Below are positions 3,189 through 24,578 of a stretch of DNA of 64,000 bases, piece after piece (the first letter of the stretch is position 1; each line of letters opens with the position of its first letter). The notes below the pieces were generated by a model, which saw only the letters and a program-made list of their open reading frames with translations, was not told the origin of the DNA and ran no database searches. Location: positions 1-64,000 of IMG/VR virus record IMGVR_UViG_3300021963_000074; one strand, 5' to 3'. The DNA comes from a virus. The translations under genes were made by a program, and so were the position numbers.

Positions 3189-3799
3189 TATTGTTTACTC
3201 CTACAATTATCACCGTGCCAACGAGTATGATTTGGTTTATCAATCGTCTTGTCACAATGAATACATGTCATTTTTATATTGGTTGGATTATTCATTAAAA
3301 ATTGGTTTCTTCTACTTTCTGTTTGTTTTGTTAACCCTTCAGGAGTATAATTTAATTTTTTACCTCTTCTGTTGAGATCCGCTTGTGTTCTTTTCTCGGT
3401 CCAATTTTTAGTTTTACCTCTAGTCGAATCACCGACTTTTTTAGCAGTAATGAGATTTTTCATTGGGTTTTTATCACCCTTCAAATCTTCTCTCGGACCT
3501 CCCTTAAGAAAATGATGCGTACCGTTTTCTATTCTTTTTTTAGCGGCCATGCTATTAAGTTTTGATATTTCTTCTGTGGTTTTATTCAACCTTAAACCTA
3601 TAAGTACACACGCATTCCAGTCTTCTTGCAAAGAATGGATATTATAGTGTTCTTGGATAGTAACCAATTGTAAATTAGAAATTTCATTGTTATTATGATT
3701 TCCATCAATATGATGTACTTCATAAGACCTACCGTCTAGGTCTTTTGGTATAGGACCGTTAACGGATTCCCAGACTAATCTGTGTTTTCTTGAACTCAT
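3188..3799 (-). CDS. HNH homing endonuclease, free-standing
   Basis: Site-specific endonuclease expected to spread its own gene into phage relatives that lack it. I start it at the ATG at 3799 (203 aa) because CGGAG precedes it and the family usually begins a few residues before the HRLVWESVNGPIP segment. The frame stays open to an ATG at 3898 that overlaps the upstream stop. HNH core: H29-H30 in the YEVHHIDGN segment, then conserved N residues and the QEHYNIH end. The C-terminus holds a CxxC...H...C zinc-finger-like knuckle. It sits directly upstream of the DNA polymerase gene, a classic homing site in T4-like phages. The basic middle (TRGKTKNWTEK, NRRGKK) probably binds DNA. Confidence 0.9.
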   Translation of the reverse strand: MSSRKHRLVWESVNGPIPKDLDGRSYEVHHIDGNHNNNEISNLQLVTIQEHYNIHSLQEDWNACVLIGLRLNKTTEEISKLNSMAAKKRIENGTHHFLKGGPREDLKGDKNPMKNLITAKKVGDSTRGKTKNWTEKRTQADLNRRGKKLNYTPEGLTKQTESRRNQFLMNNPTNIKMTCIHCDKTIDKPNHTRWHGDNCRSKQ

Positions 3800-3875
3800 T
3801 TTGATACTCCGAATAGTAATAGATGGGCTATCTGTGATTCGGCACAGAAAGGTAATTACTCCTGTTCGCCCTATA

Positions 3876-3883
3876 TTATTTAT
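3876..3883 (-). promoter_or_regulatory. Possible late promoter (ATAAATAA)
   Basis: ATAAATAA followed by T, about 75 bases upstream of the preferred homing-endonuclease start. It matches the late-promoter core less well than the ATAAATAC sites elsewhere in the window. Confidence 0.3.
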
Positions 3884-3897
3884 CAGAGGTAACACCA

Positions 3898-4161
3898 TTA
3901 TATTGTTTTACCCACTGTTTCCAAAATAGTGTTGAGTTGTTCGTGTTCTTGATTTGATTGTGTTAGGCTCGCTTTATGGGCCACTCTGATTGCTTTCTTA
4001 AGTACACTAGGTTTAACTTCTAGTTCTTCTGCAATTGCTTTGATAGTGTCTGTAAGACCACCATTTAATGTGTCAATTTCGTGCATTACTGCCATACCCT
4101 CATTGACAAGTTGGGTAAGTTTAATCTTCTGATCGCCGTTGAATGTTTTCACATCACTCAT
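3898..4161 (-). CDS. dsbA: DsbA-like double-stranded DNA-binding protein
   Basis: Small 87-aa protein resembling T4 DsbA (89 aa), a dsDNA-binding protein linked to late promoters. The arrangement fits: an acidic helical N-terminus, a middle with the LEVKPSVLKKAIRVAHK helix like T4's rigid DNA-binding helix, and a short acidic C-terminus. GGAG lies upstream of the ATG. It has its own near-consensus early promoter and ends in a TAATG overlap with the homing-endonuclease frame. The homology is inferred from length and layout; another small helical regulator is possible. Confidence 0.6.
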   Translation of the reverse strand: MSDVKTFNGDQKIKLTQLVNEGMAVMHEIDTLNGGLTDTIKAIAEELEVKPSVLKKAIRVAHKASLTQSNQEHEQLNTILETVGKTI

Positions 4162-4235: not shown

Positions 4236-5525
4236 TTATCTTGCGTAACTTACTTGTCCTTGTCTGCTAATAGAAATATGTTCTGCTACCCACTCAGCAA
4301 CACCATGGTCTTCATCATTTCTACTACGCCACCCATAATTTTTCCAATAAGGATTAAAATATTTTTTTATATGATGAGCCATTATCAGACCTAAATTGTA
4401 ATAAGTTACAGGTTCATCCGACTCATTTGTATCATTCATTATATCAATAGCAATTTCTTTCATCTGTGATGGTGTTACTGCTAATGCACTTTTTATATCA
4501 ACCAAAAATCTTCTAGCATCATCATTATAATCAAAGTAGTCATTAATTTTAGGATTATCATGTATGACTTCCCAGATTTCGTCATCATCCATTTCATCAT
4601 TAATGATACCCATTTTTTTAGCGGTGTCTAATTGCCAGTCTTTAAAATAACTGTCATTGTCTTCCCAATCACTTGCCATTTGATAAACATGATCCATTGT
4701 TAAATCACGAATTTGTAAACCCATTGATGCTAATAAAGCATCATCTGTAAAAGGAACCAACTCTTTAACTTCAGGTTCTTTTGTAATGAAGTATTTGTAA
4801 AGGTCAGGGAATCTTTCAGTTAACAATTCGTATAAATTAATTGGGTCATCCTGTTCATCCATGAATTGGTCTGAACCAAAATGTAATTGATATTTTTCAC
4901 CATCATAGCTAGGTTGGGTAGGTAACAAAATATACAATGGTCTTTCTTTACTACTGTATCTACTAAAATAATTTGTTCCTTTTGTGGCTGCTGTACACCA
5001 ACGAGTACCTTGACCATAATAACAAGCAGCTTGTTCATTTTCTGGTATAACAACTCTTACATCATTATCTCTATAAACTTCTACTGCTTGCCCTTTATCT
5101 TTTAGTGGCTCTGCTGGAGGCTCATAGTTATTCATTATTGTGTAGAACTGAGGATAGGTCAACCGCATGATATCCTTAGCATCAGCACGAAAATCATTAC
5201 GCTTTTTATATTTGTCATAATCTGCTAACAATGGACCTAACACATGTGCATCTTCTAAACGTTTGATGTTTTGTTTAGCATACTCACGTGCTAACCATGG
5301 AACATATATTTTATTTTTAGTTGGATCTGCTTCTTCTAAGTTACGTAATACTTCTGCAAGTATTGCTTCTGTATTTGGTTGACCATCAGGAAATACAAAT
5401 GTTGTATTATAGAATTGATACTGTTGTTTGTCTCCGCCTGTTGCAAAGGCATTTATCAACTGCGGACCTACCATCTGTGCAGTTTTGGCTCTATTGTATT
5501 CAATTAAAAACTCACAGGCTCTCAT
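4236..5525 (-). CDS. Capsid-targeted protein of unknown function, last gene of a late operon
   Basis: 429 aa, not recognised as a named family. Residues 1-9 (MRACEFLIE) match the capsid-targeting propeptide pattern shared by several genes here, with a predicted prohead-protease cut after E9. The middle holds a motif GTRWCTAA followed by a Tyr/Ser-rich stretch, LYILLP and a YQLHFGSDQFMDEQDD segment. This W-C-T-A / LY / YQ / D-E-D-D layout recurs in other phage internal proteins as I remember them, but I know of no function. The C-terminal third is acidic and helical. It is the third gene of the operon from the late promoter at 8490, two bases after the upstream stop. No terminator is visible after it. 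Confidence 0.75.
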   Translation of the reverse strand: MRACEFLIEYNRAKTAQMVGPQLINAFATGGDKQQYQFYNTTFVFPDGQPNTEAILAEVLRNLEEADPTKNKIYVPWLAREYAKQNIKRLEDAHVLGPLLADYDKYKKRNDFRADAKDIMRLTYPQFYTIMNNYEPPAEPLKDKGQAVEVYRDNDVRVVIPENEQAACYYGQGTRWCTAATKGTNYFSRYSSKERPLYILLPTQPSYDGEKYQLHFGSDQFMDEQDDPINLYELLTERFPDLYKYFITKEPEVKELVPFTDDALLASMGLQIRDLTMDHVYQMASDWEDNDSYFKDWQLDTAKKMGIINDEMDDDEIWEVIHDNPKINDYFDYNDDARRFLVDIKSALAVTPSQMKEIAIDIMNDTNESDEPVTYYNLGLIMAHHIKKYFNPYWKNYGWRSRNDEDHGVAEWVAEHISISRQGQVSYAR

Positions 5526-5526
5526 T

Positions 5527-5970
5527 TTATTTTTCAGGTACTAGGTGCTGTGCATCACCCTTTTCATTCCATTTATGCCACATTTGTTTACCCATTTGAC
5601 TTTGATAAGGACTTGGTTTAATGTCATTCCCTAACATTTTAGCATAAGCATACATTGTACTTGCTACCCCTTTACTACGATATTTTTCTTCAACTTGTGT
5701 CTCGTCACTTTGAAGCCATTGTTGATTATCTTCTTCAGTATGAAGTACAAATACGGCCTGGCCTATATACTGTTTACCTACTGGTTGTCTTGGGTCGTAT
5801 GCACTTATTACTAATCCAGGTATATCACCTAATGCTAAGTAATGTTCTGCTTTATAGATGTATGGACCTATACGAACCTCATGCTCCCAACTTGGTCCAG
5901 AACTAGTATCATTAGGATCACCTAATGTTTCTGGATTAACCACCTCTGATACAAATTCTTTTGCTCTCAT
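5527..5970 (-). CDS. Capsid-targeted GNAT-like acetyltransferase
   Basis: 147 aa. Residues 1-9 (MRAKEFVSE) form a capsid-targeting propeptide with a predicted cut after E9. The body looks like a GNAT acyltransferase: beta strands with GQAVFVLH, then VEEKYRSKGVASTMYAYAK, where R98-x-x-G101-x-A103 is the acetyl-CoA pyrophosphate-binding motif A. The family-like ending is 'PS...Q...G...W'. The substrate is unknown. ATGA overlap with the upstream polyprotein implies coupled translation. If packaged and injected, it could acetylate a host target at the start of infection; that role is inference. Confidence 0.7.
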   Translation of the reverse strand: MRAKEFVSEVVNPETLGDPNDTSSGPSWEHEVRIGPYIYKAEHYLALGDIPGLVISAYDPRQPVGKQYIGQAVFVLHTEEDNQQWLQSDETQVEEKYRSKGVASTMYAYAKMLGNDIKPSPYQSQMGKQMWHKWNEKGDAQHLVPEK

Positions 5971-8483
5971 TGAAATATATCTGAATGTTCTTTACCGTAT
6001 ATTTTTATATACTTGCCTGCCATCATATCTGCTAGTGCTTCAATAGGACTTCCAGGATAGCTATCACCGTGCTTAATCATACCAAGTTGGTCTTGTCTAT
6101 GATGTACTAACTCATGGAATATAGTACGGAATATATCAACTAAATTTCTATTCTCAATATATACCCAAATTCTATCTCCAGTGTGCATTCCAGTGCGATG
6201 ACCTTTTTGTGCCTGTTCTGTATCTCTACTCAATGTAAATTTAGGATATGGCTTTTCTATATTCAATGTTATCATCGACCATTTAATAAAATTTTTAATT
6301 TTTTGCACATCATCTTTTTGTTCAATAGATTCACGTAAATGACTATTCGTGCCTGCTGCCCAACCCTTAAAGTCATATGCATCATCTCTTGGTAGTAGAA
6401 CAGACTGGCCCGTTTTATTGGTGAGTAAGACGTTATCAACTTCCTCATCATGATCAATATTCCAACCACGTTGTTGTAGTTGTGCCGTGATAAATTGTAA
6501 TTGATTTCTAGTACCAGAACCATATCCTTTTGGATCTAGTACGGCTGCTGAACCTCCATCTTCCATGTCAGCCCAGAACCAATCGTTAGCTAATTTCAAT
6601 ACATCTTTGGGTAACTTCTTCCAAGTAATACCGGCTGGTTTTTTAGCAATTGGCACAACGTTCTGACTAGTTGTGCGTTGTGTTACTTGTTTTTTCTTTT
6701 GTAATGGACTTACGTTAGGTTTAGTAGGTTGTTGCTTGTTGGGGAATTGCAACACTTCACCTTCTTTCATTCTCTCTTTTTTTTTAGCAATAGCAATAGC
6801 AGCTTGCATTGCAGGATTCTTTGCCTCAGCAATTTTTTGTTCAGCAATCATTGTTAATTGTTGTAATTCTTCAATAGATTCACAGTTCCATCTACGCAAT
6901 GCTTTGTTGATTGGGCTATCTGGATCTCGCTTAGTCTTGACACTAGCATTATGTTTCTTCATTCCACCCATTCTAGCACAGAAACTTTTACGACGGCTGG
7001 CAGCTTTACTGCCCTTCTTTAATTTACTTGGCTTAGTTGTTACAGCAGTCTTTAACTTACTACCTGGATTCTCTCTACGATATGCTTTAACTGCTTTGCC
7101 ACTCATGCCATCAGTCTTGTCACTCTTGTTGACTTTCTGCCAATCTTCCGCCACACCTTGCGTTTGTGTTGCTTTTGTAAATTGATTGGGTCTTACCATA
7201 TCTAATCTACGAGGATCATTCATTATAGAAGGATCTTTCATCAGTTCGCTTTTAGGATTAACCCAAAACCCAACCATTGTTCCTTTTAAAGGCAATGCAC
7301 CTTTTGGAACAACTACTGCTTCTTCAAATTCTCCACCTGCTTTTGCAGTAGGTTCGGCGTTTTTTGCCTTGGCCTTTGCAATATTTCTTGCCATTGGATC
7401 TGTGTTCTGTGATCTTGCCACTCCATTTTTTGTAAGATATGGATTGAATGCTAGTCCTTTGATATTTGTACTTTGACTTGTACCTAATGTTTTGAAATTA
7501 CTTTCAACTGCATTACGATCTAGTACTAATATTGCATCTCTACCAATGCTTACCATTTGTGTTTGTGCGTTAACACCATTAGCATAACCCCAATCTCTGG
7601 TTACACTTACTGTAGGCAGTTTGGTTTGCGCTGAGGTTGCTGCCTGTGGTGCTCTTGCTGATCGAATACTACCCGACGATAACATTCCTTTAAGACCACT
7701 CGCACTTGTAGCGTGATATAGATAGTTACCGCCTACTGCCTCATCTAAACCTTCCGCCACACCTTGCTCAACGCTTTCACTTTTGTATGTGGCCCCAGTG
7801 CATACCCAAGCAGGGCCTGTGTATCCTTGAGGGAATGCCTTCAAATGTTGAATAGTTCTGTGCCAACCTTCAATCAAATCATACCCGTTTGATAATTTAG
7901 CAACAATAATAGGTTCAGCACTTACGCCTTTTTGCTGAATCATTTGTGATTGTTGTGCATGTCTTTCGGCATCTCTTGGAACTTGAAAAGGATTAGAACT
8001 ACCACCTTCACGACTAGCAAGCATACGCTGAGTCTTTGGTGTAAAGATATCAAATGTTATAGGCAGTTTAGTCAGTGTCCATTTACAATTACCAAAGTCT
8101 TGTTTATTTCTTTTGAGAAAATCATCTAACTCTGCTTGGTCACGGATGCCCTTGGCTTGTGGATATAAGAAGTCTTTCAATACATAATCAGGCCAAGTAG
8201 GAAACTGTTGCTTCACAAAAGCAAATAAACTATTTCTAGCTTCTGACAAATCTTCCGCCACACCTTCTTCACCTAGCTTTTCTTTGTATTTTTTTATCCA
8301 GGTGTCTGGCGTATGACCGTATTTGCTCACAAATAAGTCATGTAATTTTTTGCCGGTGATCTTGTAACGCTTACTGATGCGTTGCATTAAATTGTCAATA
8401 GTACTGTAGTCTATTTTGCGTAGGCTAGGTAATTTCTTTTTTAATTCATCGACTGCGGATTCGTAAAGTAGTTCTGCTCTCAT
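5967..8483 (-). CDS. Capsid-targeted multidomain polyprotein: ParB-like, ADP-ribosyltransferase-like, basic domain, zincin
   Basis: 838 aa. It begins MRAELLYES, a capsid-targeting propeptide with a predicted cut after E8. Three GVAE linkers (near residues 74, 241 and 443) split it into modules. Module 1 is a basic helical domain. Module 2 (about 78-240) has an IIVAKLSNGYDLIEGWHRT core like ParB/sulfiredoxin folds. Module 3 (about 246-440) looks like an ADP-ribosyltransferase: NYLYHATSASGL, VSVTRD, then GGEFEEAVVV. Module 4 (about 445-560) is very basic with the SFCARMGGMKK segment, resembling the phage DUF6321 family as I remember it. Further linkers with KEGE and ESIE follow. The C-terminal module is a zinc metallopeptidase, HELVH at 790-794 with a likely third ligand E815. 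Its late promoter lies only 6 bases upstream, so the mRNA is nearly leaderless. Confidence 0.8.
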   Translation of the reverse strand: MRAELLYESAVDELKKKLPSLRKIDYSTIDNLMQRISKRYKITGKKLHDLFVSKYGHTPDTWIKKYKEKLGEEGVAEDLSEARNSLFAFVKQQFPTWPDYVLKDFLYPQAKGIRDQAELDDFLKRNKQDFGNCKWTLTKLPITFDIFTPKTQRMLASREGGSSNPFQVPRDAERHAQQSQMIQQKGVSAEPIIVAKLSNGYDLIEGWHRTIQHLKAFPQGYTGPAWVCTGATYKSESVEQGVAEGLDEAVGGNYLYHATSASGLKGMLSSGSIRSARAPQAATSAQTKLPTVSVTRDWGYANGVNAQTQMVSIGRDAILVLDRNAVESNFKTLGTSQSTNIKGLAFNPYLTKNGVARSQNTDPMARNIAKAKAKNAEPTAKAGGEFEEAVVVPKGALPLKGTMVGFWVNPKSELMKDPSIMNDPRRLDMVRPNQFTKATQTQGVAEDWQKVNKSDKTDGMSGKAVKAYRRENPGSKLKTAVTTKPSKLKKGSKAASRRKSFCARMGGMKKHNASVKTKRDPDSPINKALRRWNCESIEELQQLTMIAEQKIAEAKNPAMQAAIAIAKKKERMKEGEVLQFPNKQQPTKPNVSPLQKKKQVTQRTTSQNVVPIAKKPAGITWKKLPKDVLKLANDWFWADMEDGGSAAVLDPKGYGSGTRNQLQFITAQLQQRGWNIDHDEEVDNVLLTNKTGQSVLLPRDDAYDFKGWAAGTNSHLRESIEQKDDVQKIKNFIKWSMITLNIEKPYPKFTLSRDTEQAQKGHRTGMHTGDRIWVYIENRNLVDIFRTIFHELVHHRQDQLGMIKHGDSYPGSPIEALADMMAGKYIKIYGKEHSDIFQ
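7146..7160 (-). repeat. GVAE linker repeat, 838-aa polyprotein copy 3
   Basis: In-frame DNA word shared by at least seven places in the island, encoding TQGVAED here. It separates the ADP-ribosyltransferase-like module from the basic module. P3-P1 (V-A-E) fits the hydrophobic-x-Glu pattern seen at the N-terminal cut sites. Confidence 0.75.
7752..7766 (-). repeat. GVAE linker repeat, 838-aa polyprotein copy 2
   Basis: Identical to the 7146-7160 word. It encodes EQGVAEG and separates the ParB-like module from the ADP-ribosyltransferase-like module. Confidence 0.75.
8253..8266 (-). repeat. GVAE linker repeat, 838-aa polyprotein copy 1
   Basis: Same word except at its outer edge. It encodes EEGVAED and separates the N-terminal helical module from the ParB-like module. 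Confidence 0.7.
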
Positions 8484-8489
8484 AGTATA

Positions 8490-8497
8490 GTATTTAT
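8490..8497 (-). promoter_or_regulatory. Late promoter of the 8483-4236 operon
   Basis: Minus strand CATAAATAC, with the polyprotein ATG 6 bases downstream of the ATAAATAC core. Transcription should start almost at the ATG, giving a very short or leaderless message. No Shine-Dalgarno fits between them. Confidence 0.8.
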
Positions 8498-8570
8498 GCT
8501 CACTTTGATGAATTGGGTAGCGAATCCTATCATGCAGCCAGCAGCCGGCTACTCGGTCCTAAGGCGAGTT

Positions 8571-8642
8571 CTATACAGGGCTATATGGGTTCAAAGGTCT
8601 GTCCCATTCCCCTTCTTGTTCTGGATATACTGGATATTGCAT
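8571..8642 (-). other. Same-frame C-terminal extension or 23-codon small ORF after the 274-aa gene
   Basis: The upstream gene ends EWD then TAA. The next codons in the same frame are CAT and ATG, followed by 22 more sense codons before TAG. The peptide is Tyr/Pro-rich and again contains EWD. It could be a separate small gene, a readthrough extension, or a remnant of a once longer protein. Bases 8484-8570, between its stop and the late promoter, are richer in G+C than the surroundings and can fold (an ACTCG/CGAGT pair and an AGCC/GGCT pair). I see no gene there. Confidence 0.35.
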
Positions 8643-8645
8643 ATG

Positions 8646-9470
8646 TTAATCCCACTCTAAAAATCTTATTTCAAAGGTATTAATGTCAGTTGGTCTAATT
8701 AATATAGGACGTGTTTTATTGACGCTATTAGTCAATAACCAATCCTTATTGTTGCTATCTCTATACTTTAATACAGGATTGTATCTTAACTTCATAATCT
8801 GATCATACCCGTGTAATATATCTCCTGCTACCCCTAAAAACCAATCATTTTGATCTTTTCCTGAAGTTCTATCGTATTTAGGTGTATAACGAGAAAATTT
8901 ACCTGTTAATTTATCTGTGTATGCTTCATATCCGTGTAGTTTTAAATCGGTAACTAATTCTGCGGTATATTTCAACTTTTTACCACTACCGTGTGCCAAT
9001 ACTATTCTATATGTAGTGTATTCTGTTTCATCTGGATACATGATATCCAATAACATTGTATAAAAGAAATTTATTTTTTCAGGTTCATAACTATGATCAG
9101 TTTGGTCTACTGATTCAATCCCTGAATTTATAATACCACTATGTGACTTGGGTCTAAAGAATGTACAGTTATCATCTCCTTGCCAAGCCGCGGCAAACTT
9201 CTTAGTAATATTTTCATCCCCGTTATTACAACAAACCCATAATACTGAGAAATTACCTATATTCTTACCATGAACAAAAGGTATATTGTTATTTGGATTT
9301 TGCCCTATTGGAATATTTACATTTTCCTGCAATACATCAAATGTAACATTGTATTTTGATGTAGGGATTTTTTTATCAAATTTGATATAAACAAAATTGT
9401 CTTGTTCTCGTTCATCCCGCAAACCTGTCATTTGCAGTATTTTATTAGCAAAGTTTCTAAATCCACCCAT
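8646..9470 (-). CDS. Conserved-looking protein of unknown function in the internal-protein operon
   Basis: 274 aa, not recognised. It has mixed alpha/beta composition, no signal peptide, no membrane segment and no hydrophobic-x-Glu propeptide at the N-terminus (it begins MGGFRNFANK). Aromatic- and lysine-rich strands such as NFVYIKFDKK and YTTYRIVLAHGSGKKLKY suggest a beta-rich fold. GGGG lies a few bases before the ATG. It is the last long gene of the operon that starts at 15898, so it is late-expressed together with the capsid-targeted proteins. Confidence 0.7.
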   Translation of the reverse strand: MGGFRNFANKILQMTGLRDEREQDNFVYIKFDKKIPTSKYNVTFDVLQENVNIPIGQNPNNNIPFVHGKNIGNFSVLWVCCNNGDENITKKFAAAWQGDDNCTFFRPKSHSGIINSGIESVDQTDHSYEPEKINFFYTMLLDIMYPDETEYTTYRIVLAHGSGKKLKYTAELVTDLKLHGYEAYTDKLTGKFSRYTPKYDRTSGKDQNDWFLGVAGDILHGYDQIMKLRYNPVLKYRDSNNKDWLLTNSVNKTRPILIRPTDINTFEIRFLEWD

Positions 9471-9501
9471 ATATACCCCATTAATAACTTACTTAGTCTA
9501 A

Positions 9502-9924
9502 TTACAATGGTACTTTACATTTATTTAAAACTTTGCTGATTAGATTGAATTTCTCTGCTAATCCTACATAGAATATATCCGGTGGGCGCTCAGTATATGC
9601 TACTTGGTCATATGCTAGACAACCCATTTCTTTATAGTAATTGTTACTGGGCCAGCGATTTTTTGCTAATTCTAACCCATTGATTAATAGGCACTCATCT
9701 GCTACACTGCTTAGAACTTTCTTTCGTTGTTCAATGGGTAGGCGTGTACCTTCCATAATTTTGATACATACTGGTTCACGATTTAAGTTTGGATTATCTA
9801 AGTATCGTGCGAACAAATGAACCACGTAAGCCTCTACATTATGTTCTAAATTTACACAAAGTTTACTTTCGGCTTCAAGTATAACTTCATAGCTGTGTTT
9901 TACATAAGTTAGATAGTGGTTCAT
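9502..9924 (-). CDS. Hypothetical protein
   Basis: 140 aa, mostly helical, no recognised domain. It has several cysteines (four), a NREPVCIKIMEG segment and a C-terminal FNLISKVLNKCKVPL helix. GAGGAATA precedes the ATG. It lies six bases after the stop of the HRFGH protein in the same late operon. No capsid-targeting propeptide is present, although ILEAE near residue 17 contains the hydrophobic-x-x-Glu spacing. Function unknown. Confidence 0.65.
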   Translation of the reverse strand: MNHYLTYVKHSYEVILEAESKLCVNLEHNVEAYVVHLFARYLDNPNLNREPVCIKIMEGTRLPIEQRKKVLSSVADECLLINGLELAKNRWPSNNYYKEMGCLAYDQVAYTERPPDIFYVGLAEKFNLISKVLNKCKVPL

Positions 9925-9930
9925 TATTCC

Positions 9931-10800
9931 TCACATAATATATATTTTACCTACACTGGCGCGTAGCACAGAGTCAAACAAATTAGATAATACATTTGAT
10001 AATTCTAAGCTAGCTTCTCCGCGTAATAATTCATCATTTTGTAATTCAGGATTCAATCTCATAAACTTAGTTGTTCTACCCCATGCTTTTCTACCATAGT
10101 CTAATGAAACTGGTAGTGGATTTAACGTAATTCTACCGTCTTTTAGATATTGTGCAAATAATTCATACATAAATTCATATGGTCTTTTTATCTGTCCGGT
10201 GCGACTACTACGCTGTGTGCCTATAGCATTGAAAAAAGCACCGTATTCTTGTTGTAGGTTCCAATTAACAGCAGTATTAGTATACCTATGCTCTGCTGAT
10301 TTATTATAATAATCTTTTAGAATCTTATTGATATAATTAAAGAAATAACTCTCTGCCTTATTCCATGGATCAGCAATATTACCTCTTGATGTGCCATAAT
10401 TATTACGATTTGATGCAGTAATTGCATGACCAAATCTATGTGCCATTACCCACGGCGTCATCATAACTGCTCTGTCACCGGTGTTACCTATAAACACAAT
10501 AGTAATTGCATTTTCGTGCCTGTTAACAATTAAATCTGCTTGCTCTTTGCTAAAGATATTTTTAACTTCATTTGGATTTATTGCTCCGTATTCTTTAAAC
10601 TTTCGTAGTCCTGGACTATTATTAAAAAACAATCTAAAATTATAAGGTGTGTTCTCTAAAAATTTAATTGCTTTTGTTTGAGTAACAGGATGTGTAATCA
10701 GTTTACGGTCTACTGGATTAAACTGCCCTTTCTTTTCAAAATCACCCAATGGTACATAATCTTGTAATGGGGCTTCTGTGATGAACTCTGTTGCTCTCAT
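9931..10800 (-). CDS. Capsid-targeted zincin-like protein with a degenerate HRFGH active site
   Basis: 289 aa. MRATEFITE forms a clear capsid-targeting propeptide (predicted cut after E9, next residue Ala, as in T4 internal proteins). The body looks like a metallopeptidase fold. PWVMAHRFGHAI (H121-H125) occupies the place of HExxH, but the catalytic Glu is Arg. Downstream acidic helices (EYGAFF, and EFMYELFAQYLKDG with E209/E213) resemble the third-ligand region. It could bind zinc without normal peptidase activity, or have a different chemistry. Its start overlaps the upstream GH19 gene (ATGA). Confidence 0.75.
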   Translation of the reverse strand: MRATEFITEAPLQDYVPLGDFEKKGQFNPVDRKLITHPVTQTKAIKFLENTPYNFRLFFNNSPGLRKFKEYGAINPNEVKNIFSKEQADLIVNRHENAITIVFIGNTGDRAVMMTPWVMAHRFGHAITASNRNNYGTSRGNIADPWNKAESYFFNYINKILKDYYNKSAEHRYTNTAVNWNLQQEYGAFFNAIGTQRSSRTGQIKRPYEFMYELFAQYLKDGRITLNPLPVSLDYGRKAWGRTTKFMRLNPELQNDELLRGEASLELSNVLSNLFDSVLRASVGKIYIM

Positions 10801-11426
10801 AATATTCTATAATAATCTATAAAGTTTTCGTGTCTATCTTTAAGTCCACGCATTGCTGGATTAATATATTTGGTAACAGTAGCAGTATCTTTGAAATTAG
10901 TTATATTAGGTCTAACTCTAGTTTTCCAATACCATATAGCAATCTTGGCAGCAATGTCAGGTCTGGCTGCATATTCAGGATGATTGATTAAATCTATATT
11001 CAATGCTTGGCTAGCCATTCTATAATTATCACGACCAGTCAACTGTACAAACCCTCTGCCATGATATTTTTCACCATCTCCTGGACGAGTGTTTCCTAAT
11101 ATTCTTGCTGTCTTGGGTGCATATTGAACACCGTATCTTTTTTCAAAATAGCCTTTACCCATTGGCTTTTCTTTTAGTCGTTCAAAGTTCCATGATTCGT
11201 GTTTCATCTGAGCCAAGAATTGAGCCAATTCTGGTCCTTTTAATCCTGAGCCTATTGCAACTTTTTGCAAAGTGATTTCGTTCTGTGGGTTGTTACTTAA
11301 TACATTGAAATCTGTGGGCATTTTTAAGCCTAGTGAGGCTTGTGCTCCTGTGGCTGCTCCGGCACCCATTGCACCAAGAAACCCTCTGCGAGTTAAATCT
11401 TCTGCAATGATTTCTGATGCTCTCAT
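10797..11426 (-). CDS. Capsid-targeted GH19-like peptidoglycan hydrolase with an internal Tat signal
   Basis: 209 aa, glycoside hydrolase family 19 (chitinase/lysozyme-like): KHES with E77, and the GRGFVQLTGR motif at 123-132. Residues 1-9 (MRASEIIAE) form a capsid-targeting propeptide with a cut after E9. Immediately after comes LTRRGFLGAM with twin Arg13-Arg14, a Gly/Ala-rich hydrophobic stretch and A28-Q29-A30, a textbook Tat signal with a signal-peptidase site. Removal of the propeptide would expose the Tat signal at the new N-terminus. Inference: packaged, injected, then exported to the periplasm. The window holds a second GH19 enzyme (40952-41578) without these signals. TAATG overlap with dps upstream. 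Confidence 0.85.
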   Translation of the reverse strand: MRASEIIAEDLTRRGFLGAMGAGAATGAQASLGLKMPTDFNVLSNNPQNEITLQKVAIGSGLKGPELAQFLAQMKHESWNFERLKEKPMGKGYFEKRYGVQYAPKTARILGNTRPGDGEKYHGRGFVQLTGRDNYRMASQALNIDLINHPEYAARPDIAAKIAIWYWKTRVRPNITNFKDTATVTKYINPAMRGLKDRHENFIDYYRIL

Positions 11427-11866
11427 TATGCTCGTTCTTTTTTAAGAACACTGCGAATCATCCACTGATGTTTTTCGTGTGCATCTAATCTTTCTGCGAT
11501 AAAATTAGCAATGCCTTGTTTGTTTTCTTCTGTAGCTGATTGAAAACACATATTTAGAAAATCAATCATCTTAGCGTTGTCCGTTAGCAATTCAGTAAAC
11601 ATCAATTCAGCACGTGGAATCTTAGTTTGATCTGGAATAATACTAAGTTCAGCATAGCGTGTTAAACTACCTGGGGTATAGCTATCTAAGGTACGAATAT
11701 ATTCTGCAACTCTATCTACTGAACCGTATACCTCTGTATAGAAATTGTCAAAGAAACTATGATATTGTGGGAAGTCGGCACCTTCAACATTCCAATGAAA
11801 GTTTTGTGCTTTGATAGCAAGTGCATTTGTACTTGCTAATAGTATTTTTAAGTTATCAGTTAACAT
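11426..11866 (-). CDS. dps: Dps-like ferritin (DNA-protection protein)
   Basis: 146-aa Dps-family mini-ferritin, which oxidises and stores iron and shields DNA from peroxide. The ferroxidase residues are all present with the family's spacing: H24, H36, D40, D51 and E55, within KAQNFHWNVEG and following helices. It lacks the long basic N-terminal tail of E. coli Dps, so direct DNA binding is uncertain. No capsid-targeting propeptide. It is expressed late within the internal-protein operon, preceded by GGGGAAATAAT. It may protect packaged or replicating DNA or buffer iron; which of these is not shown by the sequence. Confidence 0.92.
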   Translation of the reverse strand: MLTDNLKILLASTNALAIKAQNFHWNVEGADFPQYHSFFDNFYTEVYGSVDRVAEYIRTLDSYTPGSLTRYAELSIIPDQTKIPRAELMFTELLTDNAKMIDFLNMCFQSATEENKQGIANFIAERLDAHEKHQWMIRSVLKKERA

Positions 11867-11867
11867 A

Positions 11868-11927
11868 TTATTTCCCCGGTGGGGTTCCTTTGTTCTTTAA
11901 GTAAAAATCAATTACGCCTCTGTCCAT
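11868..11927 (-). CDS. Possible 19-aa small ORF between the GP88 gene and dps
   Basis: ATG at 11927 to TAA at 11868, encoding a short basic peptide (MDRGVIDFYLKNKGTPPGK). It fills the 63-base gap and its last codons contain the Shine-Dalgarno of dps. It may be a leader peptide coupling translation, or chance. No independent evidence. Confidence 0.3.
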   Translation of the reverse strand: MDRGVIDFYLKNKGTPPGK

Positions 11928-11929
11928 AT

Positions 11930-13381
11930 TTAGTGCTTCAATAATAATGTACTTAATACACCAGTATCATTTGCAGTCAAGTCTGGTTCACCGGGAGCAA
12001 TAATAACATTCCATTTCATATTAGGAATCTTTTGACCTTTAGTAGCCCACTCGTCATAACTTAATATTGAATTAGCACTTAATCCATACTCGGTAGCTAA
12101 ACGTTGTTTTAATTCAGGTAACTTTTCAGGTATGATTTGCCATTGTCCTTCACTACCCTTATCTAAATTACCCTTAGCATCTTTAACTAATAAGTCTTGG
12201 AATAGTCCAGTTGGTACAATACGACTATTTTTAGTTGTATCTAATTTAGGATCAGCTGCCTTAACTTGTTTCTCTTGGCTTGTATGAGCACCCTCACTCC
12301 AATTGATAATGAAGTTATCGGGTTTCTGTGCTAGTGCGGCACCAGCCATCTTTGTATAAGCGTAGAATTTAACATCAGGTAAGCTGTTTGCTAACTTGAA
12401 TGCTAAGTCTAAGTATTCTGGACTAAAGAAGTCGCCAGCGTCATGCCAACGAATAGTTACATTATAACCGCCCTTTTTACCTAATTTTTCTTCTTTAGCA
12501 ATTTCATTTGCTAGTTGCTCAAAGAAACCATCTGGGTTGTTCAATAGATATGTAATGATGCGTCCGTCACTTAACCAAGCCGCTTCAAACTGAATCTTGC
12601 CGCCCTTCATAGCAAAGCAATCTATTTTACAGCTGCCAGCGCCAGGACATGTATTAACAACAATTAAATTGTTTGTGTTCTCGTCTAATGCAATACCAAC
12701 TAATGCGGCAAAACCAATATTGAAGAACTGTTCTAAGTCTCCATTACTGTGCTTCATCTTTTCATTTTGCTTTAGTAATTTCTTTGGACGTACTGCTAAT
12801 GCTTGTTTAACATCTTCTTCACGGTATCTGTTACCTGCAGGATCATAGTACTTGACTACACTACTACGGTGAATATAAGGCATACGATATTTGTCTTGTT
12901 TTGTTTTTCCAGACACATATTTTTCTTTGCCTTTTTTATCTAACTTTACTTGACCTGTCTTTTTATCAATGTCAGGAGTGCCAGCAATTCGTGTCATATA
13001 ATCTTGAAATTCTTGTCCACCTATATCACGCTGGTCGATAGGAAGTTTAGTTGCTTCAGGTATCATACCTTTACCGGCAAGTTTTTCTAGTTCTAAATAT
13101 TGTTGTTTTAACTTTTCCCAAGTTTCTGAGTCGCGCCTTTTATTGGCATCTAACATTTTACTATGTAATACATCAGCTTTTGCCAAATAATCATTCATTT
13201 GTATCCTGTTAATTCTACTACTAATTGGCTCGGTAGTATTTTCATCAACTTCTTCATTACCATCTACAAAATCATCGGCTTCAGGATCAGAAACAAACTG
13301 GTCAACTGACATAATTTTAATGCCACTAGGGGCTCCAGGTAATTTGGGTTCTGCACCTTCGTATAATTCTGTTATTTTCAT
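11930..13381 (-). CDS. Capsid-targeted GP88-family protein
   Basis: 483 aa. The N-terminus MKITELYE fits a capsid-targeting propeptide (cut after E8, next residue Gly). Residues from about 170 to the C-terminus resemble the phage GP88 family. They include a cysteine cluster CPGAGSCKIDC near residues 243-255, then IRWHDAGDFFSPEYLDLAFK and VKFYAYTKM. The clustered cysteines suggest metal or iron-sulfur binding, but the biochemical role of GP88 is unknown to me. The first 170 residues are charged and probably flexible. TAA/ATG spacing to the upstream gene is one base. Confidence in the family is moderate, in the propeptide good. Confidence 0.75.
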   Translation of the reverse strand: MKITELYEGAEPKLPGAPSGIKIMSVDQFVSDPEADDFVDGNEEVDENTTEPISSRINRIQMNDYLAKADVLHSKMLDANKRRDSETWEKLKQQYLELEKLAGKGMIPEATKLPIDQRDIGGQEFQDYMTRIAGTPDIDKKTGQVKLDKKGKEKYVSGKTKQDKYRMPYIHRSSVVKYYDPAGNRYREEDVKQALAVRPKKLLKQNEKMKHSNGDLEQFFNIGFAALVGIALDENTNNLIVVNTCPGAGSCKIDCFAMKGGKIQFEAAWLSDGRIITYLLNNPDGFFEQLANEIAKEEKLGKKGGYNVTIRWHDAGDFFSPEYLDLAFKLANSLPDVKFYAYTKMAGAALAQKPDNFIINWSEGAHTSQEKQVKAADPKLDTTKNSRIVPTGLFQDLLVKDAKGNLDKGSEGQWQIIPEKLPELKQRLATEYGLSANSILSYDEWATKGQKIPNMKWNVIIAPGEPDLTANDTGVLSTLLLKH

Positions 13382-13885
13382 TTAATTCTCCAAATCTTCA
13401 TGGGACCATGATATGTAACTTTTCCCGTTTGTGTCCCCTGCACGTACTACAAACACGCCACCATTATCATAACTACCTTCATCTTCACCGATTTCCCAGC
13501 CCATACTTGCTAGTGTGCGTTCAGCACGAATCATGTCTTGTTCAGTACCTAACCACCATTGTTTAGCTAATTGGCGTAAAATTTCTTCACCATCTTGTCC
13601 ACCATTATCACCGTCACCAGTATCAGCAAATTCTTTTAGTCCCTTAAGGTGCTTCTTTATATCAACGATAGGTGTGAATAAGTGATTAAGAATCTGTCTT
13701 TTCTTTTGCTCTGTTTGAAAACTTTCATTTTTCATTATAGGGCATTTCCATATGCCTTCAGTTTTAGTTGGATAAAAAGGAAAATGCTGTTGAACTTTCA
13801 ATGCACTATTTTTATCTTGGTTATCAACTTGGTAATATAAGTTTTTACCAAACGCACCTTCAACTAAAACATCAGTTATTTTCAC
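13382..13885 (-). CDS. Capsid-targeted protein, unknown function
   Basis: 167 aa beginning MKITDVLVE, a predicted capsid-targeting propeptide (cut after E9, next Gly). A mature N-terminal half has aromatic beta strands (NLYYQVDNQDK). The second half contains a DGDNGGQDGEEILRQLAKQWWLGTEQDM segment shared in style with other phage internal proteins, then RAERTLASMGWEIGEDEG and a C-terminal VVRAG. I do not recognise a catalytic motif. It overlaps the upstream polyprotein by four bases (ATGA). Confidence 0.7.
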   Translation of the reverse strand: MKITDVLVEGAFGKNLYYQVDNQDKNSALKVQQHFPFYPTKTEGIWKCPIMKNESFQTEQKKRQILNHLFTPIVDIKKHLKGLKEFADTGDGDNGGQDGEEILRQLAKQWWLGTEQDMIRAERTLASMGWEIGEDEGSYDNGGVFVVRAGDTNGKSYISWSHEDLEN

Positions 13886-15876
13886 TTTGCTGACTTTCTT
13901 AATGCATCAGCAGTCGGTGCACCTTTACTACCTGGCTTACGCATGTGTTCTCCGCTACCATGTTTAATACGTTCACGTTTAGCATGTATGTTAGCCCATA
14001 AGCCTTTGCTTTCCTCCGCCACACCTTTTGGTTTTAATTTTCTAACTGTCCAAGACCCATCGTTGTTGATTCGGTCTAATTCATACTTGTGGTATTTTGC
14101 ATCGCCTTGAGGATCTAAGTCTTCGCCAGCTATATCACGCACATACTCATCGTATAGTGCTGGATCTGAATTGTAAATTGCTGGATCAAGTATTACAACA
14201 TGGTCTGCATAATAAATCTTATTGCCTTTAATTGTTGGTCCGGTAGTAGAACCTTCCGCCACACCTTTAGTTAATCCTGGTACTTCATTTTTGAGCACAC
14301 TCATGGCTCGCTGTAGACTTGAATAAGTGTCAATGTGCTTACCGTTGGCGTGAATCATGAAGTCTGTGGGACTGGACTGAATGATTTCATATTTGCCACC
14401 ATCAGCACCGGTGCCCGAAAACACAACTTGTCCGTCCGTGCCTTCCGCCACACCTTGCTGACCACGTTGTGCTTGAAATGCTTGTGCTTTTTCATCGCTA
14501 CTTTGTTTTGATCCTTTGAACATTAACATTGCCGCAAATAACATTAGTGTTACAGGAATCAATCCTAGAATACTACCAGATGCTACTGCGCCTCCTACTT
14601 CGCCTGCGGCTGCGTGTGCCAATACACCATCAATCATTCCCATAGCATTCATCCACATTGTAGATAAAATGCTGCCGCCACCTACTGCCAATCCACCAAG
14701 TTGTTTCGTCATACCCGATTCGGCGACTGTGGCAGACTGACCTGCTGCCAATTGTTCCATCTTTTGTTTAACTTCTTTACCAGACTTGCTGGTCTTCAGA
14801 ATTTCAATCAATTGTGGCTTGTATTGTTGTGCCATTTGATAATATTTGCCAATGCCAGGAATCTTCTTGACTAATGCTGTAATAGTTTCAATAGCACCTT
14901 CATCTAACTGGTAGCCCTCCGCCACACCTTGCTCTTTAACTTTACCTTTGTTGTGTGCTTTCCATGCAGTAGCATAAGCAATACTTTTCTCTTTAGGACT
15001 TAGTTTACCATCTTTGCTATAACTCTTTTTGATGTGTTTTACCATGCGTTCTGCTTTAGCTCCGGGAGGTGCAACTTCTGCCATACCCTGTCCGTTATCC
15101 AAACGCTTAATCAAATCTAATAATTTTTCGTAGCGCATACGATTATTATTCCACGTAGACCAAGAACCATAGTGGTCTGCATATTGGTCATGACTGTTCT
15201 GAGCCAACCATGCTTTTAATGCGTTTGCTTCCTGAGTGTATTCATCTCTCTTTGAACCAGTATTTTCATCTATCGTATAGACATTGCCACGTTCATGCTG
15301 ACTAATCATATAATCCATGACAGTAACCATAATAGATTTGGCTACTGCAATTTTCTCTTGTACCCATTCTGGTAAATTTTCATCTGCTTGTAATTCGTTG
15401 CCCAAATGACCTGATACTCTAACAATAGTATGTAGATTATTTTGCACCATGTCTACTTCATCATTGTATTCACCGCCGCCGTCGAATTCTTCTTTTGCCA
15501 TGATATCACGGTCTTCTGGTCTATTACCTATGTCACGGGCTTTTGATTTGTTAAAGAATTCTTTTCTTTTTGATTTTGCTAGTAATTGTTCTTCGCTGAT
15601 ATCATCTTCGCTTATTGCTTCTTCTTTAATACCAGCTTTTCTGCTGTTTGGAAACTTTTCGCTAGAACTGATGCCTTGAAACATACTACCTTTACCCCTA
15701 CGTTGCATACTTCCCATGGGCTGTGCTACTGTAGCAATAGAACCTGAAGTAGTTTCTTCAATCTTTTCATCTTCTAACACGTTTGGATCACGACCAAATT
15801 TAGGTGCTTGTTGACTCTGTAGTCCTGAAGGACTGCTAACTGTCGTTGTCATTTCAAAAAGAGAGGATATTTTCAT
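13882..15876 (-). CDS. Capsid-targeted multidomain polyprotein with hydrophobic segments
   Basis: 664 aa, first gene of the island operon. It starts MKISSLFE (predicted cut after E8). One QGMAEV and four GVAE linkers (near residues 263, 317, 474, 538 and 618) delimit modules. Module 1 includes EYNDEVDMVQNNLHTIVRVS and a LPEWVQEKIA helix. Module 2 is a short basic domain (AERMVKHIKKSYSK). Module 3 has two long hydrophobic stretches (GGLAVGGGSILSTMW and ILGLIPVTLMLFAAMLMF) suited to membrane insertion. Modules 4 and 5 are small beta-rich domains. Module 6 is a basic tail with GLWANIHAKRERIK and MRKPGSKGAP, a C-terminal module I remember from other phage proteins. All modules could be released by the prohead protease. 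Confidence 0.8.
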   Translation of the reverse strand: MKISSLFEMTTTVSSPSGLQSQQAPKFGRDPNVLEDEKIEETTSGSIATVAQPMGSMQRRGKGSMFQGISSSEKFPNSRKAGIKEEAISEDDISEEQLLAKSKRKEFFNKSKARDIGNRPEDRDIMAKEEFDGGGEYNDEVDMVQNNLHTIVRVSGHLGNELQADENLPEWVQEKIAVAKSIMVTVMDYMISQHERGNVYTIDENTGSKRDEYTQEANALKAWLAQNSHDQYADHYGSWSTWNNNRMRYEKLLDLIKRLDNGQGMAEVAPPGAKAERMVKHIKKSYSKDGKLSPKEKSIAYATAWKAHNKGKVKEQGVAEGYQLDEGAIETITALVKKIPGIGKYYQMAQQYKPQLIEILKTSKSGKEVKQKMEQLAAGQSATVAESGMTKQLGGLAVGGGSILSTMWMNAMGMIDGVLAHAAAGEVGGAVASGSILGLIPVTLMLFAAMLMFKGSKQSSDEKAQAFQAQRGQQGVAEGTDGQVVFSGTGADGGKYEIIQSSPTDFMIHANGKHIDTYSSLQRAMSVLKNEVPGLTKGVAEGSTTGPTIKGNKIYYADHVVILDPAIYNSDPALYDEYVRDIAGEDLDPQGDAKYHKYELDRINNDGSWTVRKLKPKGVAEESKGLWANIHAKRERIKHGSGEHMRKPGSKGAPTADALRKSAK
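14014..14027 (-). repeat. GVAE linker repeat, 664-aa polyprotein copy 5
   Basis: Encodes PKGVAEE before the C-terminal basic module. The DNA word differs from the commonest form at one base. Confidence 0.7.
14254..14267 (-). repeat. GVAE linker repeat, 664-aa polyprotein copy 4
   Basis: Encodes TKGVAEG between two small beta-rich modules. Confidence 0.7.
14443..14457 (-). repeat. GVAE linker repeat, 664-aa polyprotein copy 3
   Basis: Encodes QQGVAEG, identical in DNA to the copies at 7146 and 7752. It follows the hydrophobic module. Confidence 0.75.
14917..14931 (-). repeat. GVAE linker repeat, 664-aa polyprotein copy 2
   Basis: Encodes EQGVAEG between the short basic module and the hydrophobic module. 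Confidence 0.75.
15076..15090 (-). repeat. Divergent GMAE linker, 664-aa polyprotein copy 1
   Basis: Encodes GQGMAEV. The position and flanks match the GVAE linkers, but the DNA and the P3 residue have diverged. Confidence 0.55.
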
Positions 15877-22337: not shown

Positions 22338-24566
22338 TTATTTTCTCAACAAGGGAGGAATTCCTGCCCTACTTACTTTAAAATTAAATGCTTTTGCATT
22401 CTTCTTAATTGTATCTGGTTTAACATCTACTGTTAATGCAGTTTTAAATCTTGGGTCGTTCTTTTCTTTTTCACTTGGGATATAGCCTGATGCTTCCGAA
22501 ACATCTTCTTTTTTTACTTGTTGTCTTGGTATATCACGCACAAGACTATGTTCGCCATTGTAGTGCCATCCTGGGAAGTATTTAGGTGCTACTCGGAAGA
22601 AACGTTGATACATCATTAATTGTCTTTTTCCTGCACCCTGAATAATAATTTCATCAATCTCAGTGTTGTATTCAGTGATAAATTTACGAATAGCATTGAT
22701 TACAGTGGAATAGATTAAGAATTGATTTTTATTTTTAGCAGTTAAATCTGTGTTCATCTCATCCCCAAAACTATAATCGTCTTGTTCTTCTCTTACACCA
22801 AATGCTACATTCACTGCATTCCAGTTCGACTTTTTACCAAAAGCAGGAGCACCCTTTACGGTGAAGTTTATTAAGAATTTGTTTTTACCAGACTTAAACT
22901 TCATAACTTTGTAGGTAACTTGTTTACGGTCATTGGTGTTTACAAGGTCTTTTGGTTCTTTAACTTTAAGACTGGAATTAGCTAATTCTTCTAAAGGCTC
23001 TTCCGTAACTTCTTGATTTATCTTACTCAGTTCGTATCGTACTATCGTGCCGGTATCAGCACGGAACGCTCTATATCCTAACTCTTTGGCATAACGCTGA
23101 ACTAGTCTGTCGTACAAATTGGCACGGCTTTCAGGATTCGCATTGGCACCGTACTGAACCATATCAGCTTCGGGTTTTTTGCTGGCCGTAAAAAATAACG
23201 TTTGTGGTTGATATTTCTTAATAAATTTTTGTATGGCTGCTAATACAGTAGCAAAGATTCTTTGAGCATCGCCCTCACCAGTTACTTCTTGACTGTTGTT
23301 TCTGTAAAACTCAACACCCCAGATCTCATCTACAATATCTGCTCGGCTGAACATGATGCTTAAATTTGATCCATCTGGTAGTTTGGCCAACATATCAACA
23401 TCGCCATACTCACTCTTTTCTGATTTGGTTTTGTAAGGTTGGTCAAATACTTCATTTACATTATATGTAGGATCGGTCTTCTGACGAGGTATACTTTTAG
23501 GTTGATTTGGATCAACTGGATCAATATCTGTTGTTGTTAATCCAGTCTTCTTTAAAGCATCAATATACTTATGTTCTTCTTCTTCACTGCCAAACGCCAT
23601 AATAGTGCTAGGAGGTCCCTTACCAAAGTCATGTTTACCTAATCCTTTAAGATTACTGATATGTTGACCTAACTTATACCAATCATACACATCGCTAACA
23701 TCTACTTTGACTGTACCTGCAGGCATAGTTGGTTTAGTCTCTGGACCAGGAGGAGGTCCATTTGGATCGTAATCTTCTTCAGTTTTAAATCTAGTAAACT
23801 CATTAGCCAAACTATCTGCTAAATCATTTCTTTTTACTTTTCTAATTACTTTATTTTCAGGTAAACTTAGTCTTTCACTATGTAACTCATCTAGTTTTTC
23901 ATATAGTCTTTTAATAATACCCTGTGTACGCAATGCTTTGAATGCTAAATTCTCTGGTCCAAACTCACCATTTAAATCTAATCCAGCTTGGCGATATTTC
24001 TTAATAGTTTTCAATACGCCCTGTATCTTTTCATAACTATTAGAACGTAGGGCAAATTCTGCTAGTTTGGCTATTTTCTTAAATTTTGCTTTGGCTGCTA
24101 CTTGGTCAAGGTTAGCTTTACGCTTTCTAGGTAATTTAATCCATTTATTGTTTAATATACTATACTCACCCAAACTTATTACAGGTTCATTTGCATCCTG
24201 TACATATAATTCTACTTCATACCCGTTAATTACTATATCATGTTGGTCATTATATACTATCTTTTTAGCGTCAAATAACTCACGGTATACGTCATCGTCA
24301 GTAAAACCAGTCATATCAACTAAAATATGTAGGTCTATATCGCTGTGTTTAGTATACGAATAGGCTGCGTTGCTTCCAGATAATGTTATATCCTTAACGT
24401 CTAAATCGTCTATTCCCAGATGTTCTATGAAATCGTCAGCTATAATTAGTAATTGTTGGCGAACTTCGTCATTCATATGATCACCGTCAAATATAGCTTG
24501 ATTTAAATCGGTATGAAAGTATAATGCGTCACTTAGCTTGAAATCGTGTAATTCTTTAAGGTCCAT
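22338..24566 (-). CDS. Nucleotidyltransferase-domain internal-protein relative
   Basis: 742 aa from the ATG at 24566. The frame extends 9 codons further, but the late promoter lies inside that extension, so 24566 is the start. Residues 60-125 form a polymerase-beta-type nucleotidyltransferase: SGSN at 63-66, D76-x-D78, third acid E119 in GYEVELYVQD. The middle is proline-rich and charged. Residues about 380-690 hold two copies of one domain, comparing EIWGVEFYRN...FATVLAAIQKFIKKY with VNVAFGVREE...YSTVINAIRKFITEY. VSEASGY near the C-terminus contains a hydrophobic-x-Glu-Ala cut-like site. Relatives I remember begin with a capsid-targeting propeptide; this one does not. Confidence 0.75.
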   Translation of the reverse strand: MDLKELHDFKLSDALYFHTDLNQAIFDGDHMNDEVRQQLLIIADDFIEHLGIDDLDVKDITLSGSNAAYSYTKHSDIDLHILVDMTGFTDDDVYRELFDAKKIVYNDQHDIVINGYEVELYVQDANEPVISLGEYSILNNKWIKLPRKRKANLDQVAAKAKFKKIAKLAEFALRSNSYEKIQGVLKTIKKYRQAGLDLNGEFGPENLAFKALRTQGIIKRLYEKLDELHSERLSLPENKVIRKVKRNDLADSLANEFTRFKTEEDYDPNGPPPGPETKPTMPAGTVKVDVSDVYDWYKLGQHISNLKGLGKHDFGKGPPSTIMAFGSEEEEHKYIDALKKTGLTTTDIDPVDPNQPKSIPRQKTDPTYNVNEVFDQPYKTKSEKSEYGDVDMLAKLPDGSNLSIMFSRADIVDEIWGVEFYRNNSQEVTGEGDAQRIFATVLAAIQKFIKKYQPQTLFFTASKKPEADMVQYGANANPESRANLYDRLVQRYAKELGYRAFRADTGTIVRYELSKINQEVTEEPLEELANSSLKVKEPKDLVNTNDRKQVTYKVMKFKSGKNKFLINFTVKGAPAFGKKSNWNAVNVAFGVREEQDDYSFGDEMNTDLTAKNKNQFLIYSTVINAIRKFITEYNTEIDEIIIQGAGKRQLMMYQRFFRVAPKYFPGWHYNGEHSLVRDIPRQQVKKEDVSEASGYIPSEKEKNDPRFKTALTVDVKPDTIKKNAKAFNFKVSRAGIPPLLRK

Positions 24567-24569
24567 AAT

Positions 24570-24577
24570 GTATTTAT
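24570..24577 (-). promoter_or_regulatory. Late promoter, leaderless type
   Basis: ATAAATAC followed by only ATT before the ATG at 24566. A transcript starting at the usual distance would begin at the start codon. It abuts the terminator at 24579-24601. It drives the nucleotidyltransferase, fibre and LamG genes. Confidence 0.8.
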
Positions 24578-24578
24578 G

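Follow-up and report, generated by a model that had tools for sequence, protein, structure and literature searches.

A Repeated In-Frame DNA Word at the Module Boundaries of Putative Head-Cargo Polyproteins in T4-Like Phages

The window analyzed here, positions 1-64,000 of the IMG/VR record IMGVR_UViG_3300021963_000074, is part of a 90.7-kb fragment of a T4-like virus and contains two genes, of 664 and 838 amino acids (aa), in which a short DNA word encoding the peptide GVAE recurs between protein modules. In the genes examined the word is restricted to module boundaries and to one reading frame, crossovers fall inside it, the neighbors of a module turn over across it, and selection keeps a hydrophobic-x-Glu pattern in its product. 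As the best explanation, to which we assign a probability of roughly 0.7 on comparative sequence evidence, these two genes, like at least one other gene of the window, probably encode prohead-cargo polyproteins that are cut into modules by the prohead protease gp21, the cut site being held as a DNA word that also serves as crossover homology.

In this explanation, a short leader at the N-terminus, of the capsid-targeting type, would bring the whole chain into the prohead core, where a gp21-type protease would cut behind the leader and between modules, in each case after hydrophobic-x-Glu; the separate effector proteins would be released and then injected with the DNA. The boundary site would have been standardized in this phage group to (x)AAGGTGTGGCGGAAG, encoding V-A-E in a fixed frame. 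Recombination between words would move, delete or insert whole modules with the reading frame intact and a cleavage site at every new junction, because every boundary has the same word in the same frame.

Results

Copies and Frame of the Word

The word GGTGTGGCGGA has seven exact matches in the window against 0.35 expected, all of them in frame and read as GVAE, with four in the 664-aa gene and three in the 838-aa gene, all on the minus strand. This confirms the first-pass annotation, made from the sequence alone, which had noted an in-frame word of about 15 bases at least seven times in two genes (three and four copies, plus a divergent GMAE), and the coordinates are given below. No eighth copy was found in the window with one mismatch allowed, and the rest of the 90.7-kb record beyond the window holds no further copy. 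Related loci are referred to by number (L062 and so on).

The 664-aa polyprotein gene and its parts:
13882-15876 (-): open reading frame (ORF) with leader MKISSLFE and six modules; no Pfam family; the C-terminal module matches phrog_16028
15853-15876 (-): putative head-targeting leader MKISSLFE, ending L-F-E (sequence; comparison with 93 leader-like N-termini of relatives)
15076-15087 (-): divergent linker GMAE, preceding module VAPPGAKAERMVKHIKK (word search)
14917-14928 (-): linker word 1, QGVAE, exact match; left end of the L062 deletion
14455-14916 (-): module GYQLDEGAIETI..., with predicted-looking hydrophobic segments; has a different neighbor in L017
14443-14454 (-): linker word 2, QGVAE, exact match
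14266-14442 (-): module GTDGQVVFSGTG..., about 58 aa; L062/L171 have it in the other polyprotein gene
14254-14265 (-): linker word 3, KGVAE, exact match
14026-14253 (-): module STTGPTIKGNKIYY...
14014-14025 (-): linker word 4, KGVAE; right end of the L062 deletion, with 15 nucleotides (nt) in common with word 1
13882-14013 (-): C-terminal module ESKGLWANIHAKRERIK...; in Limnohabitans phage DC33 its homologue stands alone as a 55-aa protein

The 838-aa polyprotein gene and its parts:
5967-8483 (-): ORF with leader MRAELLYE and modules; DUF6321 at residues 455-532
8460-8483 (-): putative head-targeting leader MRAELLYE, ending L-Y-E (sequence, leader comparison)
8253-8264 (-): linker word, EGVAE, exact match; breakpoint relative to L062/L171
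7764-8252 (-): ParB/sulfiredoxin-like module, 163 aa; 39 related loci; AlphaFold2 model with a predicted local distance difference test (pLDDT) score of 85.6
7752-7763 (-): linker word, QGVAE, exact match
7158-7751 (-): module GLDEAVGGNYLYHAT..., 198 aa; nine related loci; no Pfam match
7146-7157 (-): linker word, QGVAE, exact match; breakpoint relative to L062/L171
5967-7145 (-): DUF6321 module followed by a C-terminal metallopeptidase-like module with HELVHHRQ (domain search; HExxH motif)

The residue preceding GVAE is Q, E or K with a codon of the form xAA, and the following residue is usually G, A, D or E with a Gxx codon; what is conserved is thus a DNA word with both of its ends inside codons, (x)AAGGTGTGGCGGAAG, of about 15 nt from the second base of the preceding codon to the first base of the next. 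For the preceding codon, GAA was used in 35 of 36 cases of E and AAA in 28 of 28 cases of K, though xAG is common elsewhere in these genes. Of the linker originally described as (Q)GVAE(G), the core GVAE stands, and the flanking residues vary.

The 14-mer CAAGGTGTGGCGGA was found at at least 119 viral loci, most of which are long ORFs with the word in the same frame; a locus has as many as five copies of the 14-mer. At least 172 deduplicated polyprotein genes of related viral contigs have modules joined by the word, and with at most one mismatch 371 copies in these 172 genes are in frame and none lies in the other two frames (median spacing 85 residues). Twenty related records gave about 57 matches to the word and about 3 to the reversed pattern. 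The six genomes of cyanophages and other isolates contained one match in total, and 257 Gb of bacterial and archaeal genomes gave 26 single scattered matches, nearly all GC-rich and at chance level. With no contig among these carrying several copies, we rejected the idea that the word belongs to host or bacterial genomes. It should be noted that some loci were selected by the exact word and others were fetched by module similarity, and that only the latter are free of word-selection bias. Some records that carry the word are of jumbo size, namely L199 (374 kb), L075 (343 kb) and L004 (300 kb), and T4-type portal genes are present in L199 and L004.

Exchange of Modules at the Word

Swapping of modules by short homology, suggested in the first-pass annotation, is borne out by crossovers within the 15-nt word in near-identical relatives. 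Between the 664-aa gene and its counterpart in L062, whose flanks are 96.9-98.7% identical, there is an exact deletion from word 1 to word 4. These two words share AAGGTGTGGCGGAGG (15 nt), and the L062 junction has the sequence of word 1 on its left and that of word 4 on its right. The TDGQVV module absent from the L062 counterpart sits in the other polyprotein gene of L062, with linker sequence at both ends. An all-versus-all comparison gave 205 internal ends of high-identity blocks, of which 98 coincide with words in both genes (0.1% expected by chance); by unique contexts the figure is 86 of 169. Related phages thus carry the linker with different module orders (e.g., L017 and L062), as an early check on the idea had called for.

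Turnover at the junctions is fast. The neighbor across the word is homologous in 68-73% of junction pairs when the modules are at least 97% identical, and in 2-4% of pairs when they are 90-97% identical; overall, modules that differ by more than 3% have unrelated neighbors in about 95% of cases. A module therefore acquires a new neighbor in less time than it needs to diverge by a few percent. Among loci fetched by module similarity and not by the word, the fourfold-degenerate sites of GGT GTG GCG are 95-97% identical, compared with 42-63% in the adjacent modules (below 95% protein identity). The word appears to be held at the DNA level, which can be explained either by a recognized DNA site or passively, since only exact words pair; old unshuffled junctions, on which a comparison of the two would rest, are nearly absent from the data set.

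The first of these explanations, in which a phage endonuclease or recombinase recognizes the word and makes module exchange active and directed rather than passive, seems to us rather doubtful. It would account for the sharp edges of a unit of about 15 nt that begins and ends within codons (xAA...Gxx), for the exactness of the word beside saturated synonymous sites and for the extremely fast replacement of neighbors. However, no enzyme dedicated to the word was identified; the HNH gene at 3188-3898 (-), beside the family-B DNA polymerase gene, looks like an ordinary homing endonuclease. Passive recombination in which only exact words pair would also preserve the word. Just as tentative is a broader version, in which a phage enzyme would cut or pair at the word and the effector repertoire would be recombined within reading frames at each infection, the word also ensuring the release of the modules.

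A Putative Cleavage Signature at Module Boundaries

It is unlikely that the word is merely a recombination junction, with GVAE a harmless soluble spacer in a multidomain protein that stays whole. The crossovers at the word, and synonymous sites far more conserved in it than in the modules, are what such a spacer would predict, and the virion RNA polymerase of phage N4, which has a metallopeptidase domain, is packaged unprocessed (PMC5512222). A spacer would, however, need neither a Glu at its end nor a hydrophobic residue two positions before, yet among protein-changing variants of the word with one or two mismatches 98 of 106 keep both in register (51% expected at random). The changes in these variants affect the Glu seven times and the residue before it 42 times, and at the hydrophobic position they lead mostly to Met or Leu.

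Nor would a spacer explain the junctions that have no word. Of 345 homologous junctions of this kind, 114 come directly after a hydrophobic-x-Glu, a 22-fold excess over a background of about 5 per position. In single-domain homologues the junction corresponds to the end of the N-terminal leader, which peaks at the last residue of GVAE (24 of 72, against a background of about 1.3). With a slash marking the junction, MRAQEFVAE/AFDRPYAM (L173) aligns with QGVAE/AFDQPYAT (L040), MRATEFITE/DWNKVN (L097) with QGVAE/DWQKVN, and MKISDILSE/VTLGDY (L111) with GVAE/VSLGDY (L094); some polyproteins retain both elements, as in QGVAEG-LSE/SRNSLF compared with MRAQEF-LTE/SRGSLF. Isolated cyanophages have the DWQ junction without the word, with GLSE before DWQSVN in S-SRM01 and VIGE before DWQSVN in DSL-LC02, and the homologue of the VAPPGAKAERMVKHIKK module is preceded by LEE in cyanophage Sf-CH1b and by IKE in Sf-CH11.

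The proposal that V-A-E follows the same hydrophobic-x-Glu cut pattern as the leaders is supported by the variants, the junctions without the word and the leader ends of single-domain homologues. As to conservation of the linker in relatives that share the domains, the exact peptide is not kept in distant relatives, and hydrophobic-x-Glu at the same junction is. The further proposal, of one leader with a prohead protease releasing the modules, has evolutionary evidence behind its cut signature; the cutting itself and the packaging into the head are what we infer from it.

Putative Leaders and a Candidate Protease

T4 gp21 has its cut site after L/I-X-E, and internal proteins reach the head by means of ten-residue leaders of this type (PMC9026906). 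In both polyprotein genes and several of their neighbors the leader has about 8-10 residues and ends in hydrophobic-x-Glu, and many members of the minus-strand gene array in the window open with such a leader (MRATEFITE, MRASEIIAE, MRAKEFVSE, MKISSLFE, MRAELLYE). The gp21 and gp23 families were found in five of 20 related word-bearing records; the gp21 homologue of a related record matches the T4 gp21 structure 5jbl (E 5e-13), and the gp23 precursors of these records have L-K-E or L-S-E at the expected position. Portal_T4 is present in eight of 24 related records, the remaining records being fragments.

Several observations weigh against processing by gp21. Neither gp21 nor gp23 was found on the window's own 90.7-kb fragment, most likely due to its incompleteness. 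The third position before the cut is V in the linker, while T4 gp21 prefers L or I; V is found there in 17 of 93 leader-like N-termini of relatives. The strict leader pattern occurs in 20 of 115 polyprotein genes with a complete 5' end, and many other polyproteins have a short N-terminus ending in LFE, LLE or similar. Finally, hydrophobic-x-Glu should be depleted within modules if gp21 cut at every site available to it. It is not clearly depleted there (L/I-x-E observed/expected 1.15, compared with 1.30 in control ORFs), so that selectivity of gp21 would have to come from accessibility; depletion within modules was accordingly dropped as a line of support.

Module Content

Pfam matches in 41 polyproteins comprise GNAT, deaminase, ParB_N, amidoligase, GH19 (chitinase), SLT (lysozyme-type), LysM, RMF (ribosome modulation factor), nucleotidyltransferase, cytidylyltransferase, GP88 and DUF6321, and several functionally disparate domains occur in one chain, as in polyvalent proteins. 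The activities are of the kinds listed for injected polyvalent proteins (PMC5512222). A homologue in phage S-P4 that contains DUF6321 is annotated as structural, and purified cyanophage virions contained a cytidylyltransferase (T4-GC190; PMC3037559). For the 163-aa module of the 838-aa protein, the best matches in the PDB were ParB and sulfiredoxin, with a probability of up to 1.00 and E 0.0036 at a weak template modeling (TM) score of about 0.35. The 198-aa module GLDEAVGGNYLYHAT possibly has an ADP-ribosyltransferase-like motif; its structure model has a pLDDT of only 36.

It is very improbable that these are polyvalent proteins sensu Iyer et al. 2017 which are cut by a metallopeptidase within the chain. 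The 838-aa protein does end in the HELVHHRQ metallopeptidase-like module, and the functions overlap in GNAT, ParB, lysozyme-type and nucleotidyltransferase domains (PMC5512222). However, HExxH is found in only 10 of the 172 polyproteins and nowhere in the 664-aa protein, which led us to reject autoproteolysis as a general rule, and the same signature ends the leaders of single-domain proteins without a peptidase.

Hardly credible, finally, is an assembly artefact, with pieces of unrelated origin stitched together at the word by metagenome assemblers. The data are all metagenomic contigs and the word is repeated, but assembly k-mers and reads are normally longer than a word of 15-16 nt. A second record, IMGVR_UViG_3300021962_005476 (L170/L200), repeats the module order at 99.97% identity; moreover, the joins never break the frame, and chimeras should show no codon-level selection on the signature.

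Other Genes of the Window

The polyprotein set named in the first-pass annotation holds for its two genes and is to be extended, as the window has at least three polyproteins, the third being a 751-aa chain without the DNA word. Relatives carry QGVAE at two of its three junctions (VNE, VSE, VTE). This gene and single genes with leaders are as follows:

22338-24593 (-): third polyprotein, 751 aa, with a nucleotidyltransferase-like head; junctions VNE/VFDQPY, VTE/EPLEE and VSE/ASGYIPSEKE, all without the DNA word
4236-5525 (-): single gene, leader MRACEFLIE (ORF, leader comparison)
5527-5970 (-): single gene, leader MRAKEFVSE; its homologue is a GVAE-preceded module in L065
9931-10800 (-): single gene, leader MRATEFITE (ORF, leader comparison)
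10797-11426 (-): GH19 glycoside hydrolase (chitinase/endolysin), leader MRASEIIAE (PF00182, E 3e-13)
11930-13381 (-): GP88-family protein, leader MKITELYE (PF17338, E 1.4e-23)
13382-13885 (-): single gene, leader MKITDVLVE; the second half occurs as a polyprotein module in relatives (L062/L170 gene compared with L044 module)

In the GH19 gene a twin-arginine-like stretch, DLTRRGFLGAMGAGAA, directly follows MRASEIIAE, and the same pattern follows QGVAE in L093 (GSLEEIDRRGFL). Within the array of leader genes, 11426-11866 (-) encodes a ferritin-like (Dps-type) DNA-binding protein (PF00210, phrog_3636) with no recognizable leader. The gene at 25678-26733 (-) is cytidylyltransferase-like (PF01467), and related domains open polyproteins in L068, L118 and L147. 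An acidic low-complexity protein of 808 aa (46123-48549, -) starts with MDFRNLLQAMSSLSEG, like the polyprotein heads of L005 and L011; it has no GVAE word and no family match. The window also has tail sheath, tail tube and family-B DNA polymerase genes. Past the window (G000 69687-70387; L127), the record has two adjacent genes that by eye are IscU/NifU-like and IscA-like (iron-sulfur assembly).

Discussion

Polyvalent proteins are the closest known class to the chains described here, and the T4 internal proteins are the model for their delivery. The polyvalent proteins that Iyer et al. 2017 described from phages and conjugative elements combine 2-15 disparate effector domains and are often virion-borne and injected, show domain mosaicism (up to 50 combinations in the Helicobacter jhp1044 family), and share with the present chains ParB, GNAT, lysozyme, nucleotidyltransferase and metallopeptidase domains (PMC5512222). 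They are proposed to be processed by a metallopeptidase in the chain, whereas most chains here lack HExxH and have one standard short boundary site with a prohead-protease signature; no mention of the word "linker" was found in that paper (PMC5512222).

The T4 internal proteins and Alt likewise have a short N-terminal leader ending in hydrophobic-x-Glu, and a gp21-type protease is found in our related records. The T4 cargo is packaged in the head and cut by gp21, as the present chains would be, but has a terminal propeptide (one at each end in Alt) and one functional protein per gene, whereas in the present chains a single leader would be shared by three or more unrelated modules (PMC9026906, PMC9958956). 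Multiple cuts are known from the T4 scaffold proteins gp22, gp67 and gp68, which gp21 cuts into several pieces (PMC9026906), although the pieces are core debris that mostly leaves the head and not separate effectors. The P1 proteins DarA, DdrB and DarB are head-internal, injected and partly processed by the prohead protease (DarA N-terminus), and DdrB has a ParB-like domain (PMC12810830, PMC5512222), but they are not known to be chains with a repeated site between their parts.

RNA viruses and retroviruses are well known for polyproteins that are cut at a standard site. In the open-access literature of PubMed Central, the peptide leads mainly to alpha-synuclein papers, with no phage work among the 20 matches listed; the papers on polyproteins, prohead proteases and polyvalent proteins offer the nearest concepts and no description of this linker, and no report was found of tailed phages cutting injected effectors from polyproteins at one standard linker. 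As for short repeated elements with exchange by recombination, mobile promoter/stem-loop cassettes reportedly shuffle genes in T4-type phages (Arbiol et al. 2010). Those cassettes lie between genes and carry a promoter, whereas the word is found in frame within genes and codes for a feature of the protein. What is new, in the best reading of the sequence comparisons, would be a standard linker with a double role as cut site and crossover point, and processing by the head protease instead of an in-chain metallopeptidase.

The word, or hydrophobic-x-Glu at module edges, would be a simple marker to delimit unknown effector domains in viral metagenomes, and the arrangement would suggest a ready-made route for loading several proteins into T4-type heads. 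If the explanation is true, one short word solves three problems, in that one leader serves many effectors, the effectors are released, and modules are swapped in frame. It would also explain the quick turnover of head cargo in T4-like phages in their contest with host defenses, and such phages could very quickly reassemble the set of proteins that they inject into bacteria.

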